Of a stretch of DNA of 51,522 nucleotides, positions 1-14,791 are shown piece after piece; within the stretch, counting starts at the first letter, position 1, and every line of letters starts with the position of its first letter. The DNA is taken from assembly GCA_020848515.1 (NCBI GenBank), contig JADLIA010000136.1, forward strand, positions 1-51,522. Reading direction: 5' to 3'. The stretch comes from Rubrivivax sp. (GTDB lineage Bacteria; Pseudomonadota; Gammaproteobacteria; Burkholderiales; Burkholderiaceae_C). The translations under genes were made by a program, and so were the position numbers. A model generated the notes under the pieces. It searched no databases, had not been told where the DNA came from, and saw nothing but the letters and a program-made list of their open reading frames with translations.

Positions 1-1384
1 TCAGCGCCGCCATGCGGATGGCGTTGCGGCTGTAGTCGCTGAAGGTCAGGAAGGTGCCGCCGTAGGGGATGAAGCCGCCATGCAGCGCCACCCCGTTCAT
101 GATGGCGGCCATGCCGAACTCGCGCACCCCGTAGTTGATGTGGCGGCCGATGCGGCCCTGGGCGTCGTGCACCACATCGCCGGCCGCGTCGACGCGCAGC
201 GCCGGCGTGTGGCTGGTGTTGGTGAGGTTGGAGCCGGTCAGGTCGGCGCTGCCACCCAGCAGCTCGGGCAGCGCGGCGGTGAAGGCCTCCAGCGCGATCT
301 GGCTGGCCTTGCGGCTGGCCACGGTCTCGGCTTTCTGGTGCGCCGCCACGGCGGCGTCCACCGCCACCTGATGGAAGTTCGGCGGCAGCTCGCCGCGCAG
401 GCGGCGCAGCAGCTCGGCCGCCAGCTCCGGGTGCGCGGCCTGGTAGGCCGCCAGGCGCTGCGTCCACTCGGCTTCGCGGGCCTGGCCGGCAGCGCGCGCA
501 TCCCAGGCGGCGCCGACGTCGGCCGGGATCTCGAACGGTGCGGCGTCCCAGCCCAGCGCGGCGCGGGTGAGGGCGATTTCCTCGGTCCCCAGCGGCTCGC
601 CATGCGCCTTGGCGCTGTCCTGGCGGTTCGGGCTGCCCTTGCCGATGTGGGTCTTGCAGACGATCAGCGTCGGCCGGTCGCTGCTGCGGCGCGCCTGCGC
701 GATGGCGCGATCGACGGCGTCGACGTCGTGGCCGTCGATCGGCCCGATCACATTCCACCGATAGGCGGCAAAGCGCGCCGGCACGTCATCGACGAACCAG
801 GGTGCGACCTGACCGTCGATGCTGATGCCGTTGTCGTCGTACAGCGCAATCAGCTTGTTCAGTTTCCAGGCCCCGGCCAGCGCGCAGGCCTCGTGGCTGA
901 CGCCCTCCATCAGGCAGCCGTCGCCCAGGAACACGTAGGTGTGGTGATCGACGATGGCGTGGCCGGGGCGGTTGAACTCGGCCGCCAGCAGCTTCTCGGC
1001 CAGCGCCATGCCGACCGCGTTGGTCACGCCCTGGCCCAGCGGGCCGGTGGTGGTTTCCACGCCGGGGGTCAGACCGACCTCGGGGTGGCCGGCGGTCTTG
1101 CTGTGCAACTGGCGGAAGTCCTTCAGTTCCTGCAGCGGCAGCTCGTAGCCCGACAGATGCAGCAGGGCGTACAGCAGCATCGACGCATGGCCGTTGGACA
1201 GCACGAAGCGGTCGCGGTCGGCCCACTGCGGGTTGGCCGGGTTGTGCCTGAGGTGCCGCGTCCACAACGCCACGGCCATGTCGGCCATGCCCATGGGGGC
1301 GCCCGGGTGGCCCGACTTGGCTTGTTGTACGGCGTCCATGGCCAGGGCGCGGATCGCGTTGGCCATGCGGGAAGGATTTGCCAT
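1..1384 (-). CDS. tkt: Transketolase, N-terminal 461 residues (gene cut by left window edge)
   Basis: Transketolase moves two-carbon ketol units between sugar phosphates in the non-oxidative pentose phosphate and Calvin pathways, in the cytoplasm. The protein begins [17 protein letters not shown] and carries the family landmarks in order: [12 protein letters not shown] near residue 30, the thiamine-diphosphate segment [13 protein letters not shown] near 155, [14 protein letters not shown] near 185, and the start of the pyrimidine-binding domain with [16 protein letters not shown] near 430. About 200 C-terminal residues lie beyond position 1. The start ATG at 1384 has a GGAG about nine bases upstream. 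No frameshift is seen. Identification rests on continuous family motifs; the paralogue class (glycolytic or cbb-type) cannot be decided because no neighbour is visible on the left. Confidence 0.95.
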
Positions 1385-1549
1385 GGAGCGGCTCCGGAAG
1401 GCGGTGCAGGAGGGGGGAAACCGGCGATTTTACCGGGCCCCCCAGGGCCGGCGCGGCGACGCCGCGCATGGCCCCGCAAGCCGGGCGGCTGTCGCCTGCG
1501 GCACGCGCGCCGCACCGCCGCCACGTGGCGCGGGCTTATCCTGCGCCCC

Positions 1550-1999
1550 ATGGACCCTTGCACTTCACCGGACATCCCGGCCGGCTTTCATCCGCTGCAG
1601 GCGGGCGGCGGCTTCATGGCCTTCAACGGCCCGCTCTATCTGCGGCACCAGGGCGACGACGTGCGCTTCGGCCTGCGGGTGGAGCCGCGCCACTGCAATC
1701 CCATGGGCAACCTGCACGGCGGCATGATGGCCAGCTTCTGCGACATGCTGCTGCCGCTGTCGGTGCACCGCAAGGGCGCCGGGCTCGGCCAGCGTTTTCT
1801 GCCCACCATCAGCCTGCAGATCGACTACCTGGCGCCGGCCCCGCTGGGCTGCTGGATCGAGGGCACGGCCGAGCTGCTGCGCGCCACCCGCACGCTGGTG
1901 TTCGCGCAGGGCCTGGTGACCGCCGATGGCGAACCCTGCGCGCGCGCCAGCGGGGTGTTCAAGATCGGGCCCGAGATGCCGACCGAGCTGGCCGGCTGA
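1550..1999 (+). CDS. PaaI-type hotdog-fold acyl-CoA thioesterase
   Basis: A 149-residue protein of the PaaI/YbgC hotdog thioesterase class, expected to hydrolyse acyl- or aryl-CoA thioesters in the cytoplasm. The diagnostic active-site stretch NPMGNLHGGMMASFCDML (about residues 48-65) fits the N-x-x-G-x-x-HGG-x6-D pattern in which the Asn/Gly loop binds the thioester and Asp is the catalytic acid. Length is typical for a single hotdog domain. The start at 1550 was chosen because it gives the normal domain length; a longer in-frame extension upstream would overlap the divergent transketolase gene. It faces away from transketolase and is convergent with the next gene. The physiological substrate cannot be read from the sequence. 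Confidence 0.85.
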   Translation: MDPCTSPDIPAGFHPLQAGGGFMAFNGPLYLRHQGDDVRFGLRVEPRHCNPMGNLHGGMMASFCDMLLPLSVHRKGAGLGQRFLPTISLQIDYLAPAPLGCWIEGTAELLRATRTLVFAQGLVTADGEPCARASGVFKIGPEMPTELAG

Positions 2000-2025
2000 G
2001 CCGCCGCGCTGGGGCTGGCGGAGCG

Positions 2026-2517
2026 TCAGAGCGCGCAGGCGCGCAGAAAGCGCGCGCACAGCGCCTGCATGCCGACGCGGTCGACCTCGTCGAAGCGCGC
2101 CGGCCGCGGGCTGTCCACGTCCCACACGCCCAGCAGGCTGCCGTCACGGCGCAGCAGCGGCACCACGATTTCCGAGCGCGAGGCGCTGTCGCAGGCGATG
2201 TGGCCGGCAAAGGCATGCACGTCCGGCACCACCTGGGTCTGGCGCGTGGCCGCCGCCGTGCCGCACACCCCGCGACCGAAGGCGATGCGCACGCAGGCCG
2301 GTTTGCCCTGAAACGGCCCGACCACCAGCTCCTGGCCTTCGGCAAAGTAGAAGCCGCACCAGTTCAGCTCGGGCAGGGCGTGAAACACCAGTGCGGCAAA
2401 GTTGGCGGCGTTGGCGATCAGCTGCGTTTCGCCGTGCAGCAGCCCGTCGACCTGGCGCGCCAGCTCGGCGTATTGCTCGGATCGGTCGGTGGCGGACAGG
2501 GGGGTGACGTCGAACAT
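2026..2517 (-). CDS. msrC: Free methionine-(R)-sulfoxide reductase (GAF domain)
   Basis: This 163-residue single-GAF-domain protein matches the fRMsr family, which reduces free methionine-R-sulfoxide with thioredoxin-type reductant and so repairs oxidised methionine. The core NWCGFYF (52-58) is the usual family opening. All three redox cysteines are present: Cys75 in GKPACVRIAFG, Cys85 in GVCGTA and Cys109 in HIACDSASRSEIVVPL, corresponding to the resolving and catalytic cysteines of the E. coli enzyme. LGVWDVDSP near 130 completes the fold. The gene precedes nothing on its strand in the downstream direction, and lies 25 bases after the phospholipase-like gene on the same strand, so the two could be co-transcribed. 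Confidence 0.92.
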   Translation of the reverse strand: MFDVTPLSATDRSEQYAELARQVDGLLHGETQLIANAANFAALVFHALPELNWCGFYFAEGQELVVGPFQGKPACVRIAFGRGVCGTAAATRQTQVVPDVHAFAGHIACDSASRSEIVVPLLRRDGSLLGVWDVDSPRPARFDEVDRVGMQALCARFLRACAL

Positions 2518-2542
2518 GGGTCAGGGTGGATCGGTGCTTGTG

Positions 2543-3892
2543 TCAGGGTGCGGCGCCTTGCAGGATGGCGCGCACCAGCCGCCGGCTGTGGACGCCGAAA
2601 TGGCGCATCAGCGTGGCCAGGGTCTGTTCCAGCGCCTGCTTGGCGGGCGCGCCGCGCTGCGCCACCTCGGCCATCAGGTCGATGCCGCCGGCGTGCACGC
2701 CGAAGTCGAACGTCGGGTCATCGACGTAGCCGGCGGGCACGGTGGCCAGCAGCTGCGCCGTCACCGTTTCGCCGGCGGCGTGCGCCTGGCGCGCCACTTC
2801 GTCGCGCAGCGTGGTATCGCTCCACGGGCCGTAGCTGGCGTCGGCCGCGGTGTCGCGCAGCGCCTGCTCCAGCGGGCCGGCCTTGCGGGCCTGGGCGCTG
2901 GCCTGGATCATCTGGCTTTCGTAACGCTCCAGCACCAGGTGGCGGTTGGACAGGCGCACCACCATGTCGTTCTTGGCGCCGGGCCGTCCCAGCAGGGCCA
3001 GCAGCTGGATGCCGATCAGGCGCGCGCTCGAGTAGCCCGGCGCCAGGCTGGCGTGGTAGGGCTGGGTCAGGTCCTGCAGGTAGTGCAGCGCCAGCCCGGC
3101 AAAGCGCCAGCCCCAGTACGGGTGGCCGCGGCGAAAGGCCAGCTGCGCCAGTCCCTGGTACTGGTGGGCGCGCAGCAGCGGGTAGGTGCGTTTCAGAAAC
3201 CCGGCCGCCGCGTAGATCAGGCCCGACTCGTGGTAGTAGCCCATGTGAAACGGCGCCTGGGTGGCGAAGTCCAGGCTGGGGTTGCCGAACGGGATGTGGC
3301 CGAAGCCGTAGCCCGGGCCCCAGCTGGAGGGGCTGTCCTGCCACAGGTTCAGGTCCATGCCGTAGTCGGGTTCATCGCTGGCCGACGCCAGCACGGCGAT
3401 CGGGGCCACGGCCTGGCCGGCGTGCAGGCGCACGAAGCGGTGCTTTTCGCCGTCCTTGTCGCGCAGCGGCAGCGCGCTGACGGCGTCGTGCGGCAGGCGC
3501 TCGGCCTGCGGCTCGGGGCCCCAGGGGTCGGGCTGCACGTACAACGCCAGCCGGCTGTCGGGCGACACGCGCAGCGCCGTCAGGAACGCCCGCCGCAGCG
3601 CCTGCGGACCCTGGCTGGCCACCGCCGGGTCAAAGCGCAGGGCTGCCGGCAGCGGCGGGTAGTGCGGCAGATGCGCCTGCGCCCAGGCGTCCTGCGCCTG
3701 CAGCAGGTCGGCGATCGGCTGGGCCTGCGCGGCCAGGAACTGCTCCAGCGGCTCGGCCAGCACGGCCGGGGCCTGGGCCACCTCGGGCATGGGCTCGAAG
3801 GCGCGGTAGCTGGCCAGCGCGTGGTTGCTCCAGGCCTGGGCGGAAAGATGGGCGCCGAAGCTCAGCGCGACGGTGATCAGCAGACGTTTCAT
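2543..3892 (-). CDS. Secreted zinc-dependent phospholipase C / S1-P1 nuclease-like protein
   Basis: A 449-residue exported protein. The N-terminus MKRLLITVALSFGAHLSAQA is a Sec signal peptide; cleavage after AQA would expose Trp21 as the new N-terminus. In the bacterial zinc phospholipase C / S1-P1 nuclease fold the mature N-terminal Trp chelates a zinc ion, so this fits. The other zinc-site motif is clear: HYLQDLTQPYH (His270, Asp274, His280), the H-x3-D-x5-H signature of that fold. Further acidic/His candidates are around DEPDYGMD (173-180) and GYYHES (218-223). The protein is longer than the classic 245-residue phospholipase C. Whether it cleaves phospholipid or nucleic acid is not decidable. 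It lies 12 bases downstream of the FGGY kinase gene on the same strand. Confidence 0.7.
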   Translation of the reverse strand: MKRLLITVALSFGAHLSAQAWSNHALASYRAFEPMPEVAQAPAVLAEPLEQFLAAQAQPIADLLQAQDAWAQAHLPHYPPLPAALRFDPAVASQGPQALRRAFLTALRVSPDSRLALYVQPDPWGPEPQAERLPHDAVSALPLRDKDGEKHRFVRLHAGQAVAPIAVLASASDEPDYGMDLNLWQDSPSSWGPGYGFGHIPFGNPSLDFATQAPFHMGYYHESGLIYAAAGFLKRTYPLLRAHQYQGLAQLAFRRGHPYWGWRFAGLALHYLQDLTQPYHASLAPGYSSARLIGIQLLALLGRPGAKNDMVVRLSNRHLVLERYESQMIQASAQARKAGPLEQALRDTAADASYGPWSDTTLRDEVARQAHAAGETVTAQLLATVPAGYVDDPTFDFGVHAGGIDLMAEVAQRGAPAKQALEQTLATLMRHFGVHSRRLVRAILQGAAP

Positions 3893-5467: not shown

Positions 5468-5486
5468 GGGGTGGTGGGGTGGCGGC

Positions 5487-5517
5487 GCAGGCGATGTAGT
5501 CGCACCGCCTCGCCTGC
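5487..5517 (-). other. Hairpin in the leader of the FGGY kinase gene
   Basis: Perfect 8-bp arms GCAGGCGA (5,487-5,494) and TCGCCTGC (5,510-5,517) with a 15-base loop, 20 bases before the kinase start on the minus strand. It may affect translation or be incidental in GC-rich DNA. Nearby, GCGGCAGCCGGG occurs twice in tandem (about 5,549-5,576). Nothing else is recognised between 5,468 and 5,660. Confidence 0.3.
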
Positions 5518-5660
5518 AGGCGCGTGTGCCATCGTAACCCGAGCAAGCGCGGCAGCCGGGGCACGCGGCAGCCGGGTGCGGGTGGTGGTGAACATGTTCG
5601 CCGCCGGATGAATCTGATCTGCCAGCGCCGTCGCGACGCCGACAGGTCGGGCGAGAGTCA

Positions 5661-6578
5661 TCAGGCTCGGGTGGCGCTGTCGGCGAACAGGCTCGATACC
5701 TGCCGCCGAAGCCATTCGTGGCCGCTGTCGCGATGTGAACGCTGGTGCCAGAACTGGCGAATGACACCGGAGGCAATGCGCACGGGCAGGGGATGCGTGC
5801 GCAGCGCCAGCGCGGCGCAGACCCGTTCGGCGAAGCGCTCCGGCACTGTGGCAATCAGGTCGGTGCTGGCCAGCACGTGGCCCAACGCCACGTAATTCGG
5901 CACCGACAGCCGAATCCGCCGCCTGATGCCTCGGCGCTCGAACTCGCTGTCAACGCGGCCGTGACCGGTGCCCGGAGCCTCCACGCGCACGTGCTCGCAG
6001 GCCAGGAACGCAGCGCGCGTCAGCGGGCCCTCAGCCATCGGGTGCCCATTGCGCATCAGGCAAAGATAGCCTTGGCGAAACAGCGATTGCTGGTAGAAGC
6101 CTCCTTGCAGGCGAGGCAGCGAACCCAGCGCCAGGTCTATCTCGCCGGTGGACAGCGATGGCCCCAGCCCGGGGCTGTCCAGCGCTGTGGTGCGCAAGGT
6201 GACTCCGGGCGCCAGCTGGGCCAGAGCTCGCATGAGCACGGGCAAGAAATAGAGCTCTCCCACATCGGACATGGCCAGCGTGAACTGGCGCACGCTGTCG
6301 GCTGGGTCGAATGGCGCCTGCGCACGCAGCGCATCGTCGAGCAGTTCCAGCGCTTGTGCGATGGGGCCAGCCAAGCGTTGGGCCAGGGGCGTGGGCTGCA
6401 TGCCAGCCGCGCTGCGCACCAGCAGATCGTCCCCCAGCTGCACGCGCAGTCTGCGCAGCGCATTGCTCACCGCCGGCTGCGACAGACCTAGGTCTTGCGC
6501 GGCGCGTGAAACGTGGCGCTCCTGTAGCAGGCGATGCAGGATACGCAGCAGGTTGAGGTCAATGGAGGACAAATCCAT
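5661..6578 (-). CDS. LysR-family transcriptional regulator, NahR/LinR type
   Basis: A 305-residue LysR regulator. The N-terminal winged helix-turn-helix runs from DLNLLRILHRLLQERHVSRA to about residue 65, with LSQPAVSNALRRLR as the recognition helix. This NLL-x3-L-L-x-ERHVSRAA form is typical of the NahR/LinR/DntR subgroup, which controls salicylate and nitroaromatic pathways and uses salicylate-like effectors. The rest is a periplasmic-binding-protein-like effector domain. The ATG at 6578 was preferred over upstream in-frame starts because it begins exactly at the conserved MDLSSIDLNLLR. It is divergent from the Rieske oxygenase genes with 117 bases between the starts, the usual arrangement for a LysR activator and its target. 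Confidence 0.88.
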   Translation of the reverse strand: MDLSSIDLNLLRILHRLLQERHVSRAAQDLGLSQPAVSNALRRLRVQLGDDLLVRSAAGMQPTPLAQRLAGPIAQALELLDDALRAQAPFDPADSVRQFTLAMSDVGELYFLPVLMRALAQLAPGVTLRTTALDSPGLGPSLSTGEIDLALGSLPRLQGGFYQQSLFRQGYLCLMRNGHPMAEGPLTRAAFLACEHVRVEAPGTGHGRVDSEFERRGIRRRIRLSVPNYVALGHVLASTDLIATVPERFAERVCAALALRTHPLPVRIASGVIRQFWHQRSHRDSGHEWLRRQVSSLFADSATRA

Positions 6579-6695
6579 CTCGACATTATTCTCAAACGAA
6601 ATATCACACATTCCAGATGCGAGCTTGAGGCAGGGACTCATGCTCGGCATCATGTCAGGCAAGGCGCGTGCCTGCATCACTTACGGAGACTTGGC
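6579..6695. promoter_or_regulatory. Divergent promoter region of the LysR gene and the Rieske oxygenase operon
   Basis: A 117-base AT-richer spacer between divergent starts. It contains the stretch ATTCTCAAACGAAAT (about 6,589-6,603), loosely symmetric as expected of a LysR site, but no unambiguous T-N11-A box. The ribosome-binding site GGAG at 6,685-6,688 decides the TTG start at 6,696. Promoter function is inferred from position. Confidence 0.45.
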
Positions 6696-7991
6696 TTGAT
6701 CCCGTCCACATCGCTTGATTGGCCCGCTGGCGACACCAGCCGCGTGCCATTCGCCATCTACACCAACGAGCAAATCCACCGCAAGGAGTTGCAGCGCTTC
6801 TTCTACCGTGGCCACTGGTGCTACGTCGGTCTGGAGGCTGAAGTGCCCCGTCCTGGCGATTTCAAGCGCACCGTGGTGGGTGAGCGCTCAGTGATCCTCA
6901 GTCGTGCCGCAGATGGCCAGCTGCATTGTTTCGAGAACGTGTGCGCACACCGCGGCATGCAGTTCTGTCGCAAGCGGCATGGCAGCGGCATGAAGGAGTT
7001 CGTCTGCCCCTACCACCAGTGGAGCTATACGCTCAGTGGCGAACTGCAGGGGGTGCCGCTGCGTCGTGGCGTGCGCCAGGATGGGCGGGTGTTGGGCGGC
7101 ATGCCCGCGGATTTCGACACCAAGGCGCATGGTTTGACACGGCTCAAAGTCGCCACCCGGGGTGGTGTCGTTTTCGCCAGCTTCGACCATGATGTGGAAC
7201 CGCTGGAGGATTACCTGGGCCCTACGATCCTGCCCTACTTCGATCGATTGTTCAACGGACGTCAATTGAAGATCCTTGGCTACAACCGCCAGCGCATCCC
7301 AGGCAACTGGAAGCTGATGCAGGAAAACATCAAGGACCCCTATCACCCGGGTTTGCTGCATACCTGGTTCGTCACTTTCGGTCTTTGGCGCGCCGACAAC
7401 AAGGCAGCGCTCAGGATGGATGCGCACCATCGCCACGCGGCCATGATCTCGACGCGCGGCAATGCCGGCAAGCAGTCCGATGTGTCGCAAGTGTCGAGCT
7501 TCAAGGCCGCCATGGAACTGGAGGACAAGCGCTTCCTGGATATCGTGCACGAGGACTGGTGGGGTGAGCCGACGGTGGTCATGACCACCGTGTTCCCCAG
7601 CGTGATCTTCCAGCAGCAGGTCAACAGCGTGTCGACGCGGCACATCCAGCCGGACGGCCATGGCCATTTCGACTTCGTCTGGACGCACTTCGGCTTTGCC
7701 GACGATACGGCCGAGATGACGGCGCGCCGTCTGCGCCAGGCCAACCTGTTCGGTCCGGCCGGTTTCGTGTCGGCCGACGACGGCGAAGCGATCGAGCTGT
7801 CGCAATGCGGCTTCACCCAGAAGCCGGGGCACCACGCGCTGGTCGAGATGGGCGGGCGCGGCGTCGAGGAGACCGACTACATGGCCACCGAGACGCTGAT
7901 CCGTGGCATGTACGACTACTGGCGCAAGGTCATGGAGCGCCCTGACCAGGCGTCCGATGCGGTCGCGCCGCAAGAGGGGGCGCAGGCATGA
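6696..7991 (+). CDS. Rieske non-heme iron oxygenase large subunit, salicylate 5-hydroxylase (NagG)-like
   Basis: Catalytic alpha subunit, 431 residues, of an aromatic ring-hydroxylating oxygenase. The Rieske [2Fe-2S] ligands are Cys83-x-His85 and Cys104-x2-His107 ([18 protein letters not shown]). The mononuclear iron motif is [19 protein letters not shown], with Asp214 as the inter-subunit bridge and His217 and His222 as ligands. Long stretches such as [30 protein letters not shown] and [15 protein letters not shown] agree with my memory of NagG from Ralstonia U2, which hydroxylates salicylate to gentisate; related enzymes hydroxylate anthranilate-like acids. The start is TTG at 6,696, seven bases after GGAG; upstream in-frame starts would lie inside the LysR gene. 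The stop overlaps the small-subunit start by four bases (ATGA). No reductase gene is present in the window. Confidence 0.9.
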
Positions 7992-8464
7992 GGCTCGATT
8001 TCGACACCTGGCAGGCGCTGGTGCAGTTGCAGGCCGACTATGCCGCCGTCGTCGATGGTGGCGACTGGGACCGCTGGCCCCGGTTTTTCACCGAGGACGG
8101 TGTGTACAAGCTGCAACCACGCGAAAACCATGAGCGCGGCTTTCCGCTGTGCACCCTGGCCTTTGACTGCCAGGCGGCCATGCGCGATCGCGTCTACGGC
8201 ATCAAGGAGACGCTGTTCCATGACCCGTACTACCAGCGCCACGTGGTCGGCGCGCCGCTGGTGCACGCCGCAGACAGCGACGGCATCCGCTGCGAAAGCC
8301 ACTACGCGGTGTTCCGCACCAAGCTCGACGGACTGTCCAGCGTGTTCAACGTGGGCCGCTACCTGGACCGCGTGGTGCGCACGCCGCTCGGGTTGAAGCT
8401 GGCCGAGCGCCTTGTGGTGTACGACAGCGAGATGATTCCGAACTCCATCATCTACCCGATCTGA
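7988..8464 (+). CDS. Rieske oxygenase small (beta) subunit, NagH-like
   Basis: A 158-residue beta subunit of the ring-hydroxylating oxygenase family, with the cystatin/SnoaL-like fold that packs the alpha subunits into a hexamer. The opening [33 protein letters not shown] (described here only by its start and end) and the C-terminal [17 protein letters not shown] are characteristic of small subunits of salicylate hydroxylase-like oxygenases. It starts by a four-base overlap with the large-subunit gene, so translation is coupled. It has no cofactor ligands, as expected. Assignment follows from both sequence and position. Confidence 0.88.
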
Positions 8465-8479
8465 GCAGGAAATCCGAAC

Positions 8480-8791
8480 ATGAGCCAATGGATCGACGTC
8501 GCCGCCGAGGACGGCATCTTCGAGGGCGCGGCCATCGCCGTCACGCCGATAGGGCACGACATCGCGCTCTACAAGACCGAGGCGGGCGAAGTCTTCGCCA
8601 CTCACAACATCTGCTCGCATGGCCATGCGCGGCTGTGCGAGGGTTTCCTCGAAGGTCACGAGATCGAGTGCCCGTTCCACCAGGGGCGGTTCGACGTGCG
8701 CACCGGCCAAGCCACGCTGGCCCCATGTGTCGACCCGATCCGCAGCTACCCTGTCAAGATTGAGGCTGGGCGCGTCTGGGTCCAGCTCTGA
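8480..8791 (+). CDS. Rieske [2Fe-2S] ferredoxin of the ring-hydroxylating oxygenase
   Basis: A 103-residue Rieske ferredoxin that would deliver electrons from a reductase to the oxygenase. The cluster ligands are in NICSHGHARLC (Cys-x-His) and ECPFHQGRFD (Cys-x2-His), the spacing expected of a naphthalene-dioxygenase-type ferredoxin (NagAb/NahAb). It lies 15 bases after the small-subunit gene with AGGAAA as ribosome-binding site and ends the operon. In the Ralstonia U2 nag system the same ferredoxin type serves salicylate hydroxylase and a separately encoded reductase (NagAa) completes the chain; that reductase is not seen here. Confidence 0.9.
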   Translation: MSQWIDVAAEDGIFEGAAIAVTPIGHDIALYKTEAGEVFATHNICSHGHARLCEGFLEGHEIECPFHQGRFDVRTGQATLAPCVDPIRSYPVKIEAGRVWVQL

Positions 8792-8801
8792 CCCCAGCCT
8801 A

Positions 8802-8849
8802 AGACGCGGGCGGCCAGGGTCGGAGGCCTCGCCTCCTTTGCCCGCGTCT
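8802..8849. terminator. Nested hairpin between convergent operons, probable bidirectional terminator
   Basis: Outer 10-bp perfect arms AGACGCGGGC (8,802-8,811) and GCCCGCGTCT (8,840-8,849) enclose a second perfect 6-bp hairpin GGAGGC / GCCTCC (8,822-8,827 and 8,831-8,836). It lies exactly between the stop of the ferredoxin gene and the stop of the convergent activator gene. There is no long T-run, so classical intrinsic termination is uncertain; the position argues for termination. Confidence 0.55.
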
Positions 8850-8857
8850 ACGCGACG

Positions 8858-10708
8858 TCATCCCGGCGCGCTTTGCTGCTTCCTGTACCGGTATTCGGTT
8901 TGTGCCCGCGACAGACCCAGCAGTGCGGCGGCGCGAGTGATGTTGCCCCCCGCCTGCCGCACGGCGCTGCGCACCAGGGCGCGCTCCATGGCGGCCAGCT
9001 GACCGGGGCCCTGGCGCAGCAAGTCATCGGCCAACCGGTTCATGTCCAGTGCCGCAGGACTGGCCGCACTCGTCGATGCCGGTGATTGGCTTGCGCCGAA
9101 GTCGTAATCGGTGTTGATCATTAACTGCCCCGTGTCGTCCAGGCCGAAGTAGCTCGGGGTGCTCAGGGTGTCATCGGCGTAGGACAGGTGCTGCAAGTCC
9201 AGCATTTCGCCTTCATGCAGCATGATGACGGCGCGTTCGATGACGTTTTCCAGCTCTCGGATATTGCCCGGCCAGTCGTGGTGGATCAGTGCTTGCAGTG
9301 CCCGCGACGTGATCCCAACGTGGCCACGCCCGTGTAGCGGGGCAAAGCGCTGCAGCAGCGCCTGCACCAGCAGTGGAATGTCGTCGCGCCGCTCGCGCAG
9401 TGGCGGCACCACCACCGGAAAGACATTGAGGCGAAAGTAAAGGTCTTCTCGAAAGCGTCCCTGTCGGACGGCCTGCTTAAGGTCTTCGTTGGTGGCGGCA
9501 ATCACGCGTACGTCGGTCACGCGGGTCTGATTGCTGCCCAGACGCTCCAGCGCACCGCTTTGCAGCACGCGCAGCAACTTGCCCTGGGTGGTCGGGCTGA
9601 GCGTTGCGACCTCGTCCAGAAACAGCGTGCCTCCATGCGCGGCCTCAAAGCGCCCGGCCCGGGCCTGACTGGCGCCCGAGAAGGCCCCGCGCTCGACCCC
9701 AAACAGCTCCGACTCCACCAGCGCCTCTGGGATGGCGGCGCAGTTGACTTCAATCAGTTGCGCCTGGGCGCGCTGGCTGCGTCGGTGCACCTGGCGTGCG
9801 ATCAGGCTTTTTCCCACCCCGCTTTCGCCCAGCAGCAGCACCGTGGCCTGGGTGGGGGCGACGCGGTCGATCTTGTGCCGCAGCACGGAAAAGGCGGTCG
9901 AGGCGCCAACAAAGGCGGTTTCTGCCAGCGACCGCGGCGCCGCGCGGTCATCGTCTCTGCTGTCGGTGACGGCGCTCTGGGCAAGGGCAGTGGTGGGCCC
10001 GCCATCGGCGACGGGGGCGACGATTCTGGCGCGCCGGCCCACGGGCTGCGGCAGCAGAAAACGCAGATCCTCCTCCACGTTGTCCCATTGGGCGGCAGGC
10101 TGAGCGACGATCTTGCAGTGGTTGCCACCGCTGGCGCGGCACTCGACCTCGCGCACCACAATGGTGCGTTGCGCGCAGTAGCTCAGGTAGCCTGAGCAGT
10201 AGCCCACGGCATTCCAGCAGACGGCGTGCTGACCCACGCCATGGCGGGCAACATGTGCTTCGTCTTCGAGCGAGTCCTTCCACAAGGCCTCGCCGTAATA
10301 GTCGTCGCTGCGCAAGTCGCCGGCGGCCAACCCACGGCCGACATGCTCAGGCAGCAGATAGCCTTGTAGGGCGTGCATGCGTCCACCGGTGTTGAGCACC
10401 TCTTTCAGACTCGCGCCCGGACCCAGCCTCTTCAGCACGCTGGCGGCATCGCGCTGGCCGGCAGCGAAGTAGATGCGCGTGAGCAGCCCGCGCGTCATTT
10501 CATAGCCCAGGCTGGCCAGCAGCTCCTCGCGCAGGTCGGCAAAGGTGTCGCTGTGCACCAGAACCATACGCCGCTCATCCATCCAGATGCGCCCTTCCTC
10601 GGGCGCAAATCGCAACTGCGTCGCCAGCTCGCGGATTTGCGGCAGCTTCATGTCCACCACCACTTGCGGCATTTGCAGGACGGGGGCGCGGGGTGTGCTA
10701 TCGGGCAT
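8858..10708 (-). CDS. Sigma-54-dependent activator of the XylR/DmpR class, HbpR-like
   Basis: A 616-residue one-component activator of aromatic catabolism. Residues about 15-115 are the XylR_N effector domain ([14 protein letters not shown]). Residues 140-205 are the V4R part, with Cys164, Glu187, Cys190 and Cys198 in exactly the spacing of the four zinc ligands of the phenol sensor MopR; His112 and Trp143 are candidates for the phenol-contacting pair. The AAA+ domain has Walker A GESGVGKS (294-301), the sigma-54 contact loop as GAFSGA (341-346) rather than the usual GAFTGA, and Walker B GTLFLDE. The C-terminus carries a Fis-type helix-turn-helix ([20 protein letters not shown]). It is divergent from the dioxygenase-hydrolase-monooxygenase genes, matching hbpR and hbpCAD of Pseudomonas azelaica. 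Confidence 0.9.
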
Positions 10709-10732
10709 GGCGGGCCGCGGCTGCTGCGCAAT

Positions 10733-10754
10733 GATTCACAAGAATCTTCATGAA
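10733..10754. promoter_or_regulatory. Candidate upstream activator site: adjacent palindromes
   Basis: Two symmetric elements abut: GATTC-ACAA-GAATC (10,733-10,746) and TTCATGAA (10,747-10,754), followed by TTATGAA. They sit about 140-160 bases upstream of the sigma-54 promoter, the distance normal for XylR/DmpR-class activators, and just before the activator's own start. Binding is inference. Confidence 0.45.
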
Positions 10755-10890
10755 ATTATGAAATCCATCAATTTTCGAACCTGGGTCGCCTCAGATATGC
10801 GAGGGATAACCCGGGGCGAGCGAGGAAAACCCACAAAAGCGCAGCGGCAAACAGAGGGTTTTCCCCTGGATTTGGGTCAATCCTTCCTGG

Positions 10891-10907
10891 CCGGCACGGT
10901 TCTCGCA
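10891..10907 (+). promoter_or_regulatory. Sigma-54 (RpoN) promoter of the dioxygenase operon
   Basis: CCGGCACGGTTCTCGCA has the invariant GG (10,893-10,894) and GC (10,905-10,906) separated by exactly ten bases, and GGCACG matches the -24 consensus fully. The -12 side reads CTCGCA against TTGCA. It lies 53 bases before the dioxygenase start codon and downstream of the divergent sigma-54 activator gene. Confidence 0.75.
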
Positions 10908-10959
10908 GAGCTCTGATATCCCTGACCGCGTGGGCGGGGTCGTTTATAGGAGACAGACG

Positions 10960-12853
<1,894 letters not shown>

Positions 12854-12872
12854 CACACAAGGGGATGCTGCT

Positions 12873-14639
12873 ATGAACACCGTAGTGACCGACGTACTCG
12901 TCATCGGCACTGGCCCCGCCGGTGCCGCCACCGCCCTGTGCCTGGCGCGCGCGGGCGTGAAGGTGCTGGCCGTCAGCAAATACCACGCCACCTCACCCGA
13001 CCCGCGCGCCCACATCACCAACCAGCGCACCATGGAGTTCCTGCGCGACTTCGGTCTCGAAGAGGCGGCCAAGAAAATCGCCATGCCCTGGGAGGACATG
13101 GGCGAACATGTGTTTGGCCGGTCGCTGGTGGGCGAGGAGTGGGGGCGTATTCCGGCCTGGGCCAGCTCGGCCATCGCCCAGGGCGAGCACATGGCCGCCA
13201 GCCCCAGCCGCTATTGCGACCTGCCCCAGCTGTACCTGGAGCCGCTGCTGGTCAACGACGCCGGTCTGCGCGGTGCCGACATCCGTTTCAAGACCGAATA
13301 CCTGTCGCACACTCAGGACGCCGAGGGCGTGACCGCCACCTTGCTGGACCGTGTCAGCGGCAGCGAGTACCAGGTGCGCGCCAAATACCTGGTGGGCGCC
13401 GACGGCGGCCGCTCCAAGGTGGCGGCCGATATCGGGCTGGAGTTCGACGGAGCCATGGGCCTGGGCGAGACCGGCAACATCAACATCGAAATCCAGGCCG
13501 ATTTGTCGCAGTTCTGCGCCCACCGCCGCAGTGACATGTACTGGATGCTGCAAACCGGCGAGAACCTGATGGGTCTGCCCCAGGGCCCCGGCATCGCGGT
13601 GCTGCGCATGGTGCGCCCCATGGACCGCTGGGTCTGCGTGGTGGGCTATGCGCTGGCCAAGGGCCTGCCCTCGCTCAAGCACGAAGACCTGTTGCCCTTC
13701 GTGCACCGCACCATCGGCAGCGACCAGGTGCCGGTAAAGATCCTGTCGGTCTCCACCTGGACCACCAACCGTCAATACGCGCTGACCAATACCCAGGGAC
13801 GGGTGTTCTGCATCGGCGACGCCGTGCACCGCCACACCCCGTTTGGCGGTCTGGGCTCCAACACCTGCATTCAGGATGCCTACAACCTGAGCTGGAAGCT
13901 GGCCATGGTCATCCAAGGCCAGGCCGGCGCCAGCCTGCTGAACACCTACCAGGACGAGCGCGCGCCGATTGCCAAGCAAATCACCGAGCACGCCTTCAAC
14001 GGCGGTGCCAGCATGGGCCCGCTGCTGATGGCGCTGGGCGTGCCCCCGGGCAGCGGCCCCGAGGCCATGGAGCAGGCTGTGGCGCGGCTGAAGGAGCCCA
14101 GCGCCGAAGGGGCCGAGCGCCGCGCCAAGCTGCGCCAGGCCATGGACGGCACCCTGAACGGCTTTGGCCGTGCCCACGGCATAGAGCTCAATCAGCGCTA
14201 CCGCTCCAGCGCCATCGTCAGCGACGGCACGCCCGACCCTGGCTTTGCACGCGACCCGGTGCAGTACCACCAAGCCAGCAGCCGCCCCGGCGCGCACCTG
14301 CCGCACGCCTGGGTGACGCGCGGGCAGCGCAAGATCTCCACCTTCGACCTGTGCGGCCAAGGGCGCTTCACCCTGCTGACGGGCCTGTCTGGCATGGCCT
14401 GGAAGGCCACCGCCGAACAGGCCGCAGCCGCCCTAGGCATCGAGCTGGTGGTGCACGTCATTGGCTTTGGCCAGGAGGTGGTGGACAGCCACGGCGACTA
14501 TTTGCGCATCAGCGAAGTCGAGGAAAGCGGCGCACTGCTGGTGCGCCCCGACCTCATGGTTGCCTGGCGCGCGGCCAATGCCGATTCCACCCAGCTGGCT
14601 CAGCTGCCGAGCGTGCTGCGGCAGATTCTTGGGCGCTGA
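12873..14639 (+). CDS. FAD-dependent phenol monooxygenase, 2-hydroxybiphenyl 3-monooxygenase (HbpA)-like
   Basis: A 588-residue class A flavoprotein hydroxylase using NAD(P)H, FAD and O2 to place a hydroxyl ortho to a phenolic OH. The FAD-binding GTGPAG (12-17), the NAD(P)H/FAD DG motif in VGADGGRSKVA and the GD motif in CIGDAVHRHTPFGGLGSN are intact. Segments such as GRIPAWAS, ASPSRYCDLPQLY, RVFC-x-GDAVHRHTP and SRPGAHLPH agree with my memory of HbpA from Pseudomonas azelaica HBP1; the TfdB chlorophenol hydroxylases are the next nearest group. Length also fits HbpA. It lies 19 bases after the hydrolase gene and closes the operon. Its substrate is therefore most likely an ortho-substituted phenol. 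Confidence 0.87.
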   Translation: MNTVVTDVLVIGTGPAGAATALCLARAGVKVLAVSKYHATSPDPRAHITNQRTMEFLRDFGLEEAAKKIAMPWEDMGEHVFGRSLVGEEWGRIPAWASSAIAQGEHMAASPSRYCDLPQLYLEPLLVNDAGLRGADIRFKTEYLSHTQDAEGVTATLLDRVSGSEYQVRAKYLVGADGGRSKVAADIGLEFDGAMGLGETGNINIEIQADLSQFCAHRRSDMYWMLQTGENLMGLPQGPGIAVLRMVRPMDRWVCVVGYALAKGLPSLKHEDLLPFVHRTIGSDQVPVKILSVSTWTTNRQYALTNTQGRVFCIGDAVHRHTPFGGLGSNTCIQDAYNLSWKLAMVIQGQAGASLLNTYQDERAPIAKQITEHAFNGGASMGPLLMALGVPPGSGPEAMEQAVARLKEPSAEGAERRAKLRQAMDGTLNGFGRAHGIELNQRYRSSAIVSDGTPDPGFARDPVQYHQASSRPGAHLPHAWVTRGQRKISTFDLCGQGRFTLLTGLSGMAWKATAEQAAAALGIELVVHVIGFGQEVVDSHGDYLRISEVEESGALLVRPDLMVAWRAANADSTQLAQLPSVLRQILGR

Positions 14640-14791
14640 CCCGCCGCTCCCTTTCCGGCTGCGTGCGACCTTTCAGGCCGGGTGGTTGACCGGCATCGGT
14701 GCCTGCGCCTGCAGGGTGTAAGGTGAACCCTTGCCGAAGGTGTTCGACCTTTGGGGCGGGAGGCCGTCTGCTGATCCACTACAGTCGCCCG

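Follow-up and report, generated by a model that had tools for sequence, protein, structure and literature searches.

The contig JADLIA010000136.1 of a draft Rubrivivax sp. genome (GCA_020848515.1), analysed here over positions 1–51,522 (the window), carries at positions 5475–14772 what we read, with a probability of roughly 0.62, as an acquired catabolic island composed of two units, in which ortho-aryl phenols would be degraded by an hbp-type (hydroxybiphenyl) unit and salicylate would be converted to gentisate by a NagGH-type unit. Each unit is arranged around a divergent regulator. In unit 1, the activator gene on the minus strand faces away from the genes for an extradiol dioxygenase, a hydrolase and a flavin adenine dinucleotide (FAD) monooxygenase, three plus-strand genes that span 10960–14639 as a predicted operon, and in unit 2 a LysR gene on the minus strand is divergent from the alpha, beta and ferredoxin genes on the plus strand. 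The features are as follows.

5475–14772, no strand: segment without counterpart at the sister-genome locus, probable acquired island (blastn and base composition)
5661–6578, minus strand: LysR-type regulator, NagR/NahR-like (Pfam HTH_1 and LysR_substrate)
6696–7991, plus strand: alpha subunit of a salicylate 5-hydroxylase-type oxygenase, nagG-like, TTG start (NagG identity, tree, residues)
7988–8464, plus strand: oxygenase beta subunit, nagH-like (identity to beta subunits adjoining nagG-like genes)
8480–8791, plus strand: Rieske ferredoxin, nagAb-like (Rieske domain)
8858–10708, minus strand: XylR/DmpR-type sigma-54 activator, hbpR-like (Pfam XylR_N, V4R and Sigma54_activat)
10824–10864, no strand: 9-nt perfect inverted repeat, candidate activator site (weak against shuffles)
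10892–10906, plus strand: candidate -24/-12 promoter, GG-N10-GC (two mismatches to TGGCACGN4TTGC)
10960–11859, plus strand: two-domain extradiol dioxygenase, hbpC-like (Pfam BphC_D1)
11975–12853, plus strand: C–C hydrolase for a meta-cleavage product, hbpD/bphD-like (TIGR03343 above cut-off)
12873–14639, plus strand: FAD monooxygenase of the HbpA clade, hbpA-like (HbpA identity, tree, residues)

All eight named genes are open reading frames at these coordinates; for the LysR and hydrolase genes the start was chosen among several candidate codons, and the TTG start of the alpha subunit is preceded by GGAG seven bases upstream. The first-pass annotation had described a divergent unit of activator, extradiol dioxygenase, C–C hydrolase and phenol monooxygenase, and this is confirmed by the reading frames and domains; its gene set as a whole is borne out, with every gene open and in place and with domain and PDB matches far beyond chance. 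The range it gave, 6696–14639, fits as well, running from the start of the oxygenase to the stop of the monooxygenase and leaving the NahR/NagR-type regulator just outside.

The best PDB match of the monooxygenase is HbpA from Pseudomonas azelaica HBP1 (4CY6, 802 bits), and the next match, HbpA mutants aside, is a 2,4-dichlorophenol monooxygenase with 453 bits. Identity to HbpA is 59.2% over 583 amino acids, compared with 50.7–52.5% to four TfdB-type proteins. The window enzyme, HbpA and a protein from locus L011 (a partial row of 435 amino acids) group together in a 17-row tree with a support of 100/99; this second tree leaves out four rows with long branches (L025, L012, L013 and L015), with which the first tree supported the same group at 87/90, and L072 (18% identity, taken in the wrong frame) is absent from both. 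Forcing the window and L011 proteins together with the four TfdB-type rows and a CadAB-plasmid protein costs 99 log-likelihood units (p-AU, the p value of the approximately unbiased test, 4e-8); the pJP4, pIJB1 and pDB1 rows were labelled tfdB here on the basis of neighbouring chlorocatechol genes, and the pEMT1 row is annotated as such. The HbpA residues H48, D117, D222, M223, W225, R242 and P320 are all conserved in the window enzyme. His48 and Asp117 are required for hydroxylation and Arg242 belongs to the active site, all three having been tested by mutation (PMC4515095), and because the same three residues are also conserved in the TfdB rows, they are not diagnostic alone. Positions 222–223 separate the groups, with Asp-Met in HbpA, the window protein, L011 and genome G017 and Val-Leu in 5 of the 5 TfdB and CadAB-plasmid rows.

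The strong HbpA resemblance noted in the first-pass annotation is thus upheld by identity, clade and conserved residues. Of the two groupings it had named as counter-evidence, that with chlorophenol hydroxylases is rejected by the tree together with residues 222–223; as to resorcinol hydroxylases, the tree contains no named member. It is well supported that the window enzyme is of the 2-hydroxybiphenyl 3-monooxygenase type, for which hydroxylation at carbon 3 dependent on reduced nicotinamide adenine dinucleotide (NADH) is predicted.

The nearest HbpA relative of the window protein is the L011 protein, at 69% identity and cut by the contig end. At that locus (positions 2–3585) the hbpA relative is directly followed by a gene for an FAD monooxygenase, with a LysR-like gene on the opposite strand; a link to salicylate was considered for this neighbour and rejected, since it is closest to tropone 2-monooxygenase and reaches 184 against a cut-off of 446 for salicylate 1-monooxygenase. 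In G017, locus L028 (9395–17281) holds an HbpA-like monooxygenase with 52% identity that keeps D222-M223 and, on the same strand, a second FAD monooxygenase and an HsaD-like hydrolase (149 bits, cut-off 400), as well as a gene that by eye resembles a LigB-type extradiol enzyme and has no NCBIfam match. This locus may be a further cluster for aryl phenols, one in which the ring-cleavage enzyme is of class III.

The hydrolase of unit 1 passes the cut-off of TIGR03343, the curated BphD equivalog (470.4 bits, cut-off 462.15), and its PDB matches are 106 bits apart (BphD 2OG1, 409 bits; MhpC, 303 bits). Both scores favour an aryl ketone substrate over one with a propionate side chain. The extradiol enzyme is a member of the BphC family and putatively HbpC-like; its best PDB match is 23AL (366 bits), a dioxygenase whose substrate is unstated, and it scores 205 bits with BphC 1HAN. 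The activator gene that adjoins these genes encodes the domains XylR_N, V4R and Sigma54_activat, which place its product in the XylR/DmpR subclass. A comparable layout was seen on a Diaphorobacter plasmid (L075, 6022–13130), where a sigma-54 regulator is divergent from a hydrolase and an extradiol dioxygenase that is 51% identical to that of the window; the genes downstream are annotated as acyl-CoA dehydrogenase, fumarylacetoacetate hydrolase family and flavin reductase, so that the oxygenase is of another kind.

In unit 2, the alpha subunit has its best PDB match in NagG of salicylate 5-hydroxylase (7C8Z, 690 bits), to which it is 74.2% identical over 388 amino acids. It groups with NagG and nine relatives at a support of 88/96, just short of the value that the tree program marks with a star and with the order inside the group unresolved, and this group stands apart from the terephthalate row, the pA81 halobenzoate-type row (a label assigned in this analysis and not taken from the record) and the other rows; the L055 row held one stop, written as X, where the slice overran the gene. 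M257, Q316 and R323 are conserved in the alpha subunit, and Q316 is a residue that we take to be distinctive of the NagG active site. Because R323 is found in most other rows, M257 recurs in two rows that do not belong to the group and L054 has Ser in place of Q316, these residues are supportive and not diagnostic; M257 and R323 are discussed for the NagG pocket (PMC9060491). In AromaDeg, the salicylate 5-hydroxylases characterised by then all fell into one cluster (PMC4250580). Two other identities were tried and rejected for the alpha subunit: AndAc of anthranilate dioxygenase is the best NCBIfam match but reaches 381.6 against a cut-off of 750, and NagG is favoured by the tree, which has no named anthranilate dioxygenase; a terephthalate or halobenzoate dioxygenase is rejected on the placement with NagG.

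The remaining genes of unit 2 agree with this assignment. The beta subunit is 59–69% identical to its counterparts encoded next to nagG-like genes in five loci (L052, L053, L054, L055 and L056), 67% to an interrupted one in L051 and 41% to that in L057; the ferredoxin is 54–63% identical to those encoded close to the nagG-like genes of six loci (L051 to L056); and the LysR protein shares 44–50% with LysR proteins near such genes in L051, L052, L054, L055, L098 and L099, including 49.8% with the product of a gene annotated nagR in L052. The NahR-type regulator and the NagG/NagH/ferredoxin-like genes of the first-pass annotation therefore hold, and so does the placement of the oxygenase. Seven annotated plasmid loci encode an alpha subunit that shares 55% or more with that of the window; of these, four (L053, L054, L057 and L095) have nearby either a gentisate 1,2-dioxygenase gene or a cupin gene with one of the fumarylacetoacetate-hydrolase family, and three (L051, L052 and L098) have no such neighbours. 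That the oxygenase of unit 2 is of the salicylate 5-hydroxylase type, predicted to form gentisate from salicylate, is well supported.

Both units lie in a single segment that has no counterpart in the sister genome G768, the nearest of the genus as judged by PepP (92%; PepP matched in 27 of 29 genus genomes). In a blastn comparison with its locus L058, homology stops at window position 5474 and resumes at 14773, delimiting 9.3 kb; in L058 only 1.9 kb separate the kinase gene on the left from murU on the right, with no sequence shared with the window in between (the fetched stretch holds 135 N). The fraction of guanine plus cytosine (GC) is 0.647 within the segment and 0.725 and 0.737 in the flanks, and at third codon positions 0.79–0.88 within and 0.90–0.95 outside. 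Being GC-poor and lacking at the sister locus, the segment was probably acquired horizontally. No convincing direct repeats were found at the borders among the 20 of 50 repeat families listed, and neither the eight segment genes nor the two identified genes that flank them encode an integrase or transposase. At the corresponding place in the sister genome, murU and the kinase gene enclose other, unrelated short frames, one of them Doc/Fic-type-like by eye, so that this position may be prone to variation.

Few HbpA-clade enzymes turned up in the genomes searched. With the host itself counted, matches of this type were found in 2 of 369 genomes of the class at E 1e-150, the other one being 53% identical, in 1 of 399 genomes of the family at E 1e-170, which is the host, and in 7 of 398 genomes of the phylum at E 1e-165, where the six others hold seven matches at 47–49% identity, the level of TfdB. 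The three samples overlap, and G768 was compared at the locus only and not searched for HbpA. A conserved joint cluster of hbp and nagG genes was not found elsewhere in the genomes sampled.

A joint route through the two units is plausible from the gene content, and 2,2'-dihydroxybiphenyl is a good candidate for its substrate. The activator would sense an aryl phenol and, with sigma-54, switch on the hbpC-D-A operon. The HbpA-like enzyme would then hydroxylate beside the phenol's own hydroxyl group, forming a 3-aryl catechol whose new catechol ring the extradiol dioxygenase would open, and the BphD-like hydrolase would release 2-hydroxypenta-2,4-dienoate together with an aryl acid, expected to be benzoate from 2-hydroxybiphenyl and salicylate from 2,2'-dihydroxybiphenyl. 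Salicylate would induce the NagR-controlled nagGHAb genes, whose Rieske salicylate 5-hydroxylase would yield gentisate for cleavage by host genes, with electrons for the NagGH-like oxygenase coming from a reductase encoded elsewhere. The substrates, the induction, the coupling of the units and this electron supply are what we infer from the genes and their relatives.

Candidate sinks for the products are present in the draft genome. Contig C60 encodes catechol 2,3-dioxygenase, semialdehyde dehydrogenase, DmpE, DmpF, DmpG and DmpH, all six above their cut-offs, along with a gene read as phenol hydroxylase reductase; this catechol meta pathway of the dmpEFG type would take up the hydroxypentadienoate. 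Candidate genes for the gentisate pathway lie on contig C69, which carries a 3-hydroxybenzoate 6-monooxygenase (688.6 bits, cut-off 459) together with gentisate-dioxygenase-like and fumarylacetoacetate-hydrolase-like genes, and on contig C161, which has a MaiA (286 bits, cut-off 171). As the draft is 77% complete, gene absences are weak evidence. BoxB was not found, in a search whose sensitivity is unproven because the control genomes stayed below the cut-off as well, and the alpha subunit of the window gave only one other Rieske alpha match, at 27.6 bits, so that no benzoate dioxygenase was seen.

Several observations weigh against the proposed route. The extradiol enzyme reaches 293 bits with TIGR03213, the 2,3-dihydroxybiphenyl equivalog, below its cut-off of 366. 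The hbpA relative in L011 adjoins a tropone-2-monooxygenase-like gene (285 bits), and no HbpC-like match was found in the same genome by a search run without a positive control. The gentisate-dioxygenase-like gene of C69 (277 bits, cut-off 442) and its neighbour of the fumarylacetoacetate-hydrolase family (148 bits, cut-off 201) lie within the 3-hydroxybenzoate cluster, and the benzoate genes missing from the draft may have fallen into assembly gaps. A NagGH system depends on a reductase, for which the cluster has no gene; genome-wide, NagAa-like matches are weak, the three best being 30–32% identical and one of them the reductase-like gene on C60, in a search that did not extend to glutathione-reductase-type reductases such as those of L053 and L099. 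In addition, the excerpted paper on ortho-phenylphenol degradation in Sphingomonas contains no mention of salicylate (PMC5527002).

The closest known system is hbpRCAD of Pseudomonas nitroreducens (azelaica) HBP-1, a strain described as one of the few bacteria that mineralise 2-hydroxybiphenyl (PMC3715732); this system has in common with the window an XylR/DmpR-type activator, HbpA, an extradiol dioxygenase and a C–C hydrolase. Its products convert 2-hydroxy- or 2,2'-dihydroxybiphenyl to hydroxypentadienoate and benzoate or salicylate, and a salicylate hydroxylase gene (locus tag 07395) lies a few locus tags from hbp (07355–07370) on acquired DNA, the integrative and conjugative element ICEPni2 (PMC7466150). 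The systems differ in gene order (C-A-D in HBP-1, C-D-A in the window), in the monooxygenases, which are 59% identical, and in that no integrase or transposase is encoded by the segment genes or the identified flanking genes of the window. They differ also in the exit from salicylate, since the HBP-1 hydroxylase may yield catechol (PMC7466150), whereas the Rieske-type enzyme of the window is expected to yield gentisate. The finding of two hbp clusters, each with a salicylate hydroxylase gene close by and the two hydroxylases differing in product, argues best for salicylate as a real product and for a 2,2'-dihydroxylated biaryl as a real substrate; the argument counts two cases, whose independent origin we infer, and L011 and the Sphingomonas cluster add nothing to it. 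The first-pass annotation had not known of a described cluster of this kind. A combination of hbp with a salicylate 5-hydroxylase was indeed not found in the literature, judged mostly from listings and thus weak evidence of absence, yet the pairing on ICEPni2 means that the combination of functions is already known and only this combination of enzymes is new. What looks new here is an hbp-type upper pathway joined to a salicylate hydroxylase of other specificity with a gentisate exit, both halves being of known types.

Comparison with other systems places the halves more precisely. In nagAaGHAb of the Ralstonia U2 type, a LysR gene is likewise divergent from G-H-Ab in the same order, and NagG is 74% identical with its active-site residues kept; the window differs in having neither the NagAa reductase nor adjacent naphthalene or gentisate genes. 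The Variovorax and Acidovorax nagGHAb loci (L055, L099 and L053) share the order alpha-beta-ferredoxin, with alpha subunits 73–77% identical, and in Variovorax a LysR gene directly precedes nagG; unlike in the window, the ferredoxin gene is immediately followed by one for a ferredoxin reductase, and no match to the hbpA, hbpC or hbpD of the window was found within the flanks read. The oppA1, oppC and oppD genes of Sphingomonas haloaromaticamans likewise supply an FAD monooxygenase, an extradiol dioxygenase and hydrolases for 2-hydroxybiphenyl, but their products are 32–45% identical to HbpCAD and a lower biphenyl pathway adjoins them (PMC5527002).

The strongest alternative, which we consider unlikely though worth serious attention, is that two independent modules lie side by side, unit 1 turning 2-hydroxybiphenyl or ortho-alkyl phenols into benzoate or short acids and unit 2 using salicylate from plants or other sources. 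The separate regulators and predicted operons would suit such an arrangement, as would the Variovorax plasmid loci L055 and L099, in which nagGHAb occurs with its own LysR gene and no hbpA, hbpC or hbpD match was found in the flanks read, and the broad activity reported for HbpA on 2-substituted phenols (PMC7466150). Opposed to it are the single pair of borders that encloses both units in one GC-poor segment, the salicylate hydroxylase near hbp in HBP-1, and a draft genome that has gentisate-type genes and in which two limited searches found no benzoate route. It is improbable that the upper unit acts on some other ortho-substituted phenol, for instance a plant phenol, and releases an acid that is neither benzoate nor salicylate. 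In favour of this reading, the pocket residue M321 of HbpA is Phe in the window protein and in L011, the extradiol enzyme is closer to 23AL than to BphC, and the Diaphorobacter set of regulator, hydrolase and extradiol enzyme carries another kind of oxygenase, but the BphD-like scores of the hydrolase point to an aryl ketone. Chlorophenol degradation by a TfdB-like monooxygenase, with the salicylate module serving chlorosalicylate, has a negligible chance of being correct, because TfdB 2,4-dichlorophenol hydroxylases, although of the same flavoprotein family and counted with TfdB-type proteins among its closest plasmid relatives (50–53%), form a separate clade, a grouping with which was rejected above, and differ at residues 222–223, and because extradiol and C–C hydrolase genes stand where chlorocatechol ortho-cleavage genes would be expected.

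If the two-unit route is correct, the island would represent a second solution to the problem solved in HBP-1, with the HbpA route paired with a Rieske salicylate 5-hydroxylase, and a compact, ready set for taking hydroxylated biphenyls to gentisate. It would also raise the question of whether HbpA-type pathways have a dihydroxylated biaryl, in place of the fungicide 2-hydroxybiphenyl, as a natural substrate. The more specific proposal, a dedicated and mobile route by which compounds of the 2,2'-dihydroxybiphenyl type pass through salicylate and gentisate, governed by a cascade of two sensors (aryl phenol, then salicylate) and assembled independently of HBP-1, is offered tentatively, at slightly less than even odds.

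The intergenic stretch between the activator and hbpC-like genes contains two candidate control elements that are suggestive only. A GG-N10-GC element, a possible sigma-54 promoter, lies 53 bases before the hbpC-like start codon and was equalled in 31 of 2000 dinucleotide-shuffled versions of this intergenic sequence; across the window as a whole, such matches number 22 and so fall short of the 37 expected. The inverted repeat at 10824–10864, a possible activator site, was found in 89 of 2000 shuffles. In the activator itself, the loop that contacts sigma-54 reads GAFSGA at the position of GAFTGA, the usual form of this loop in the activator family.

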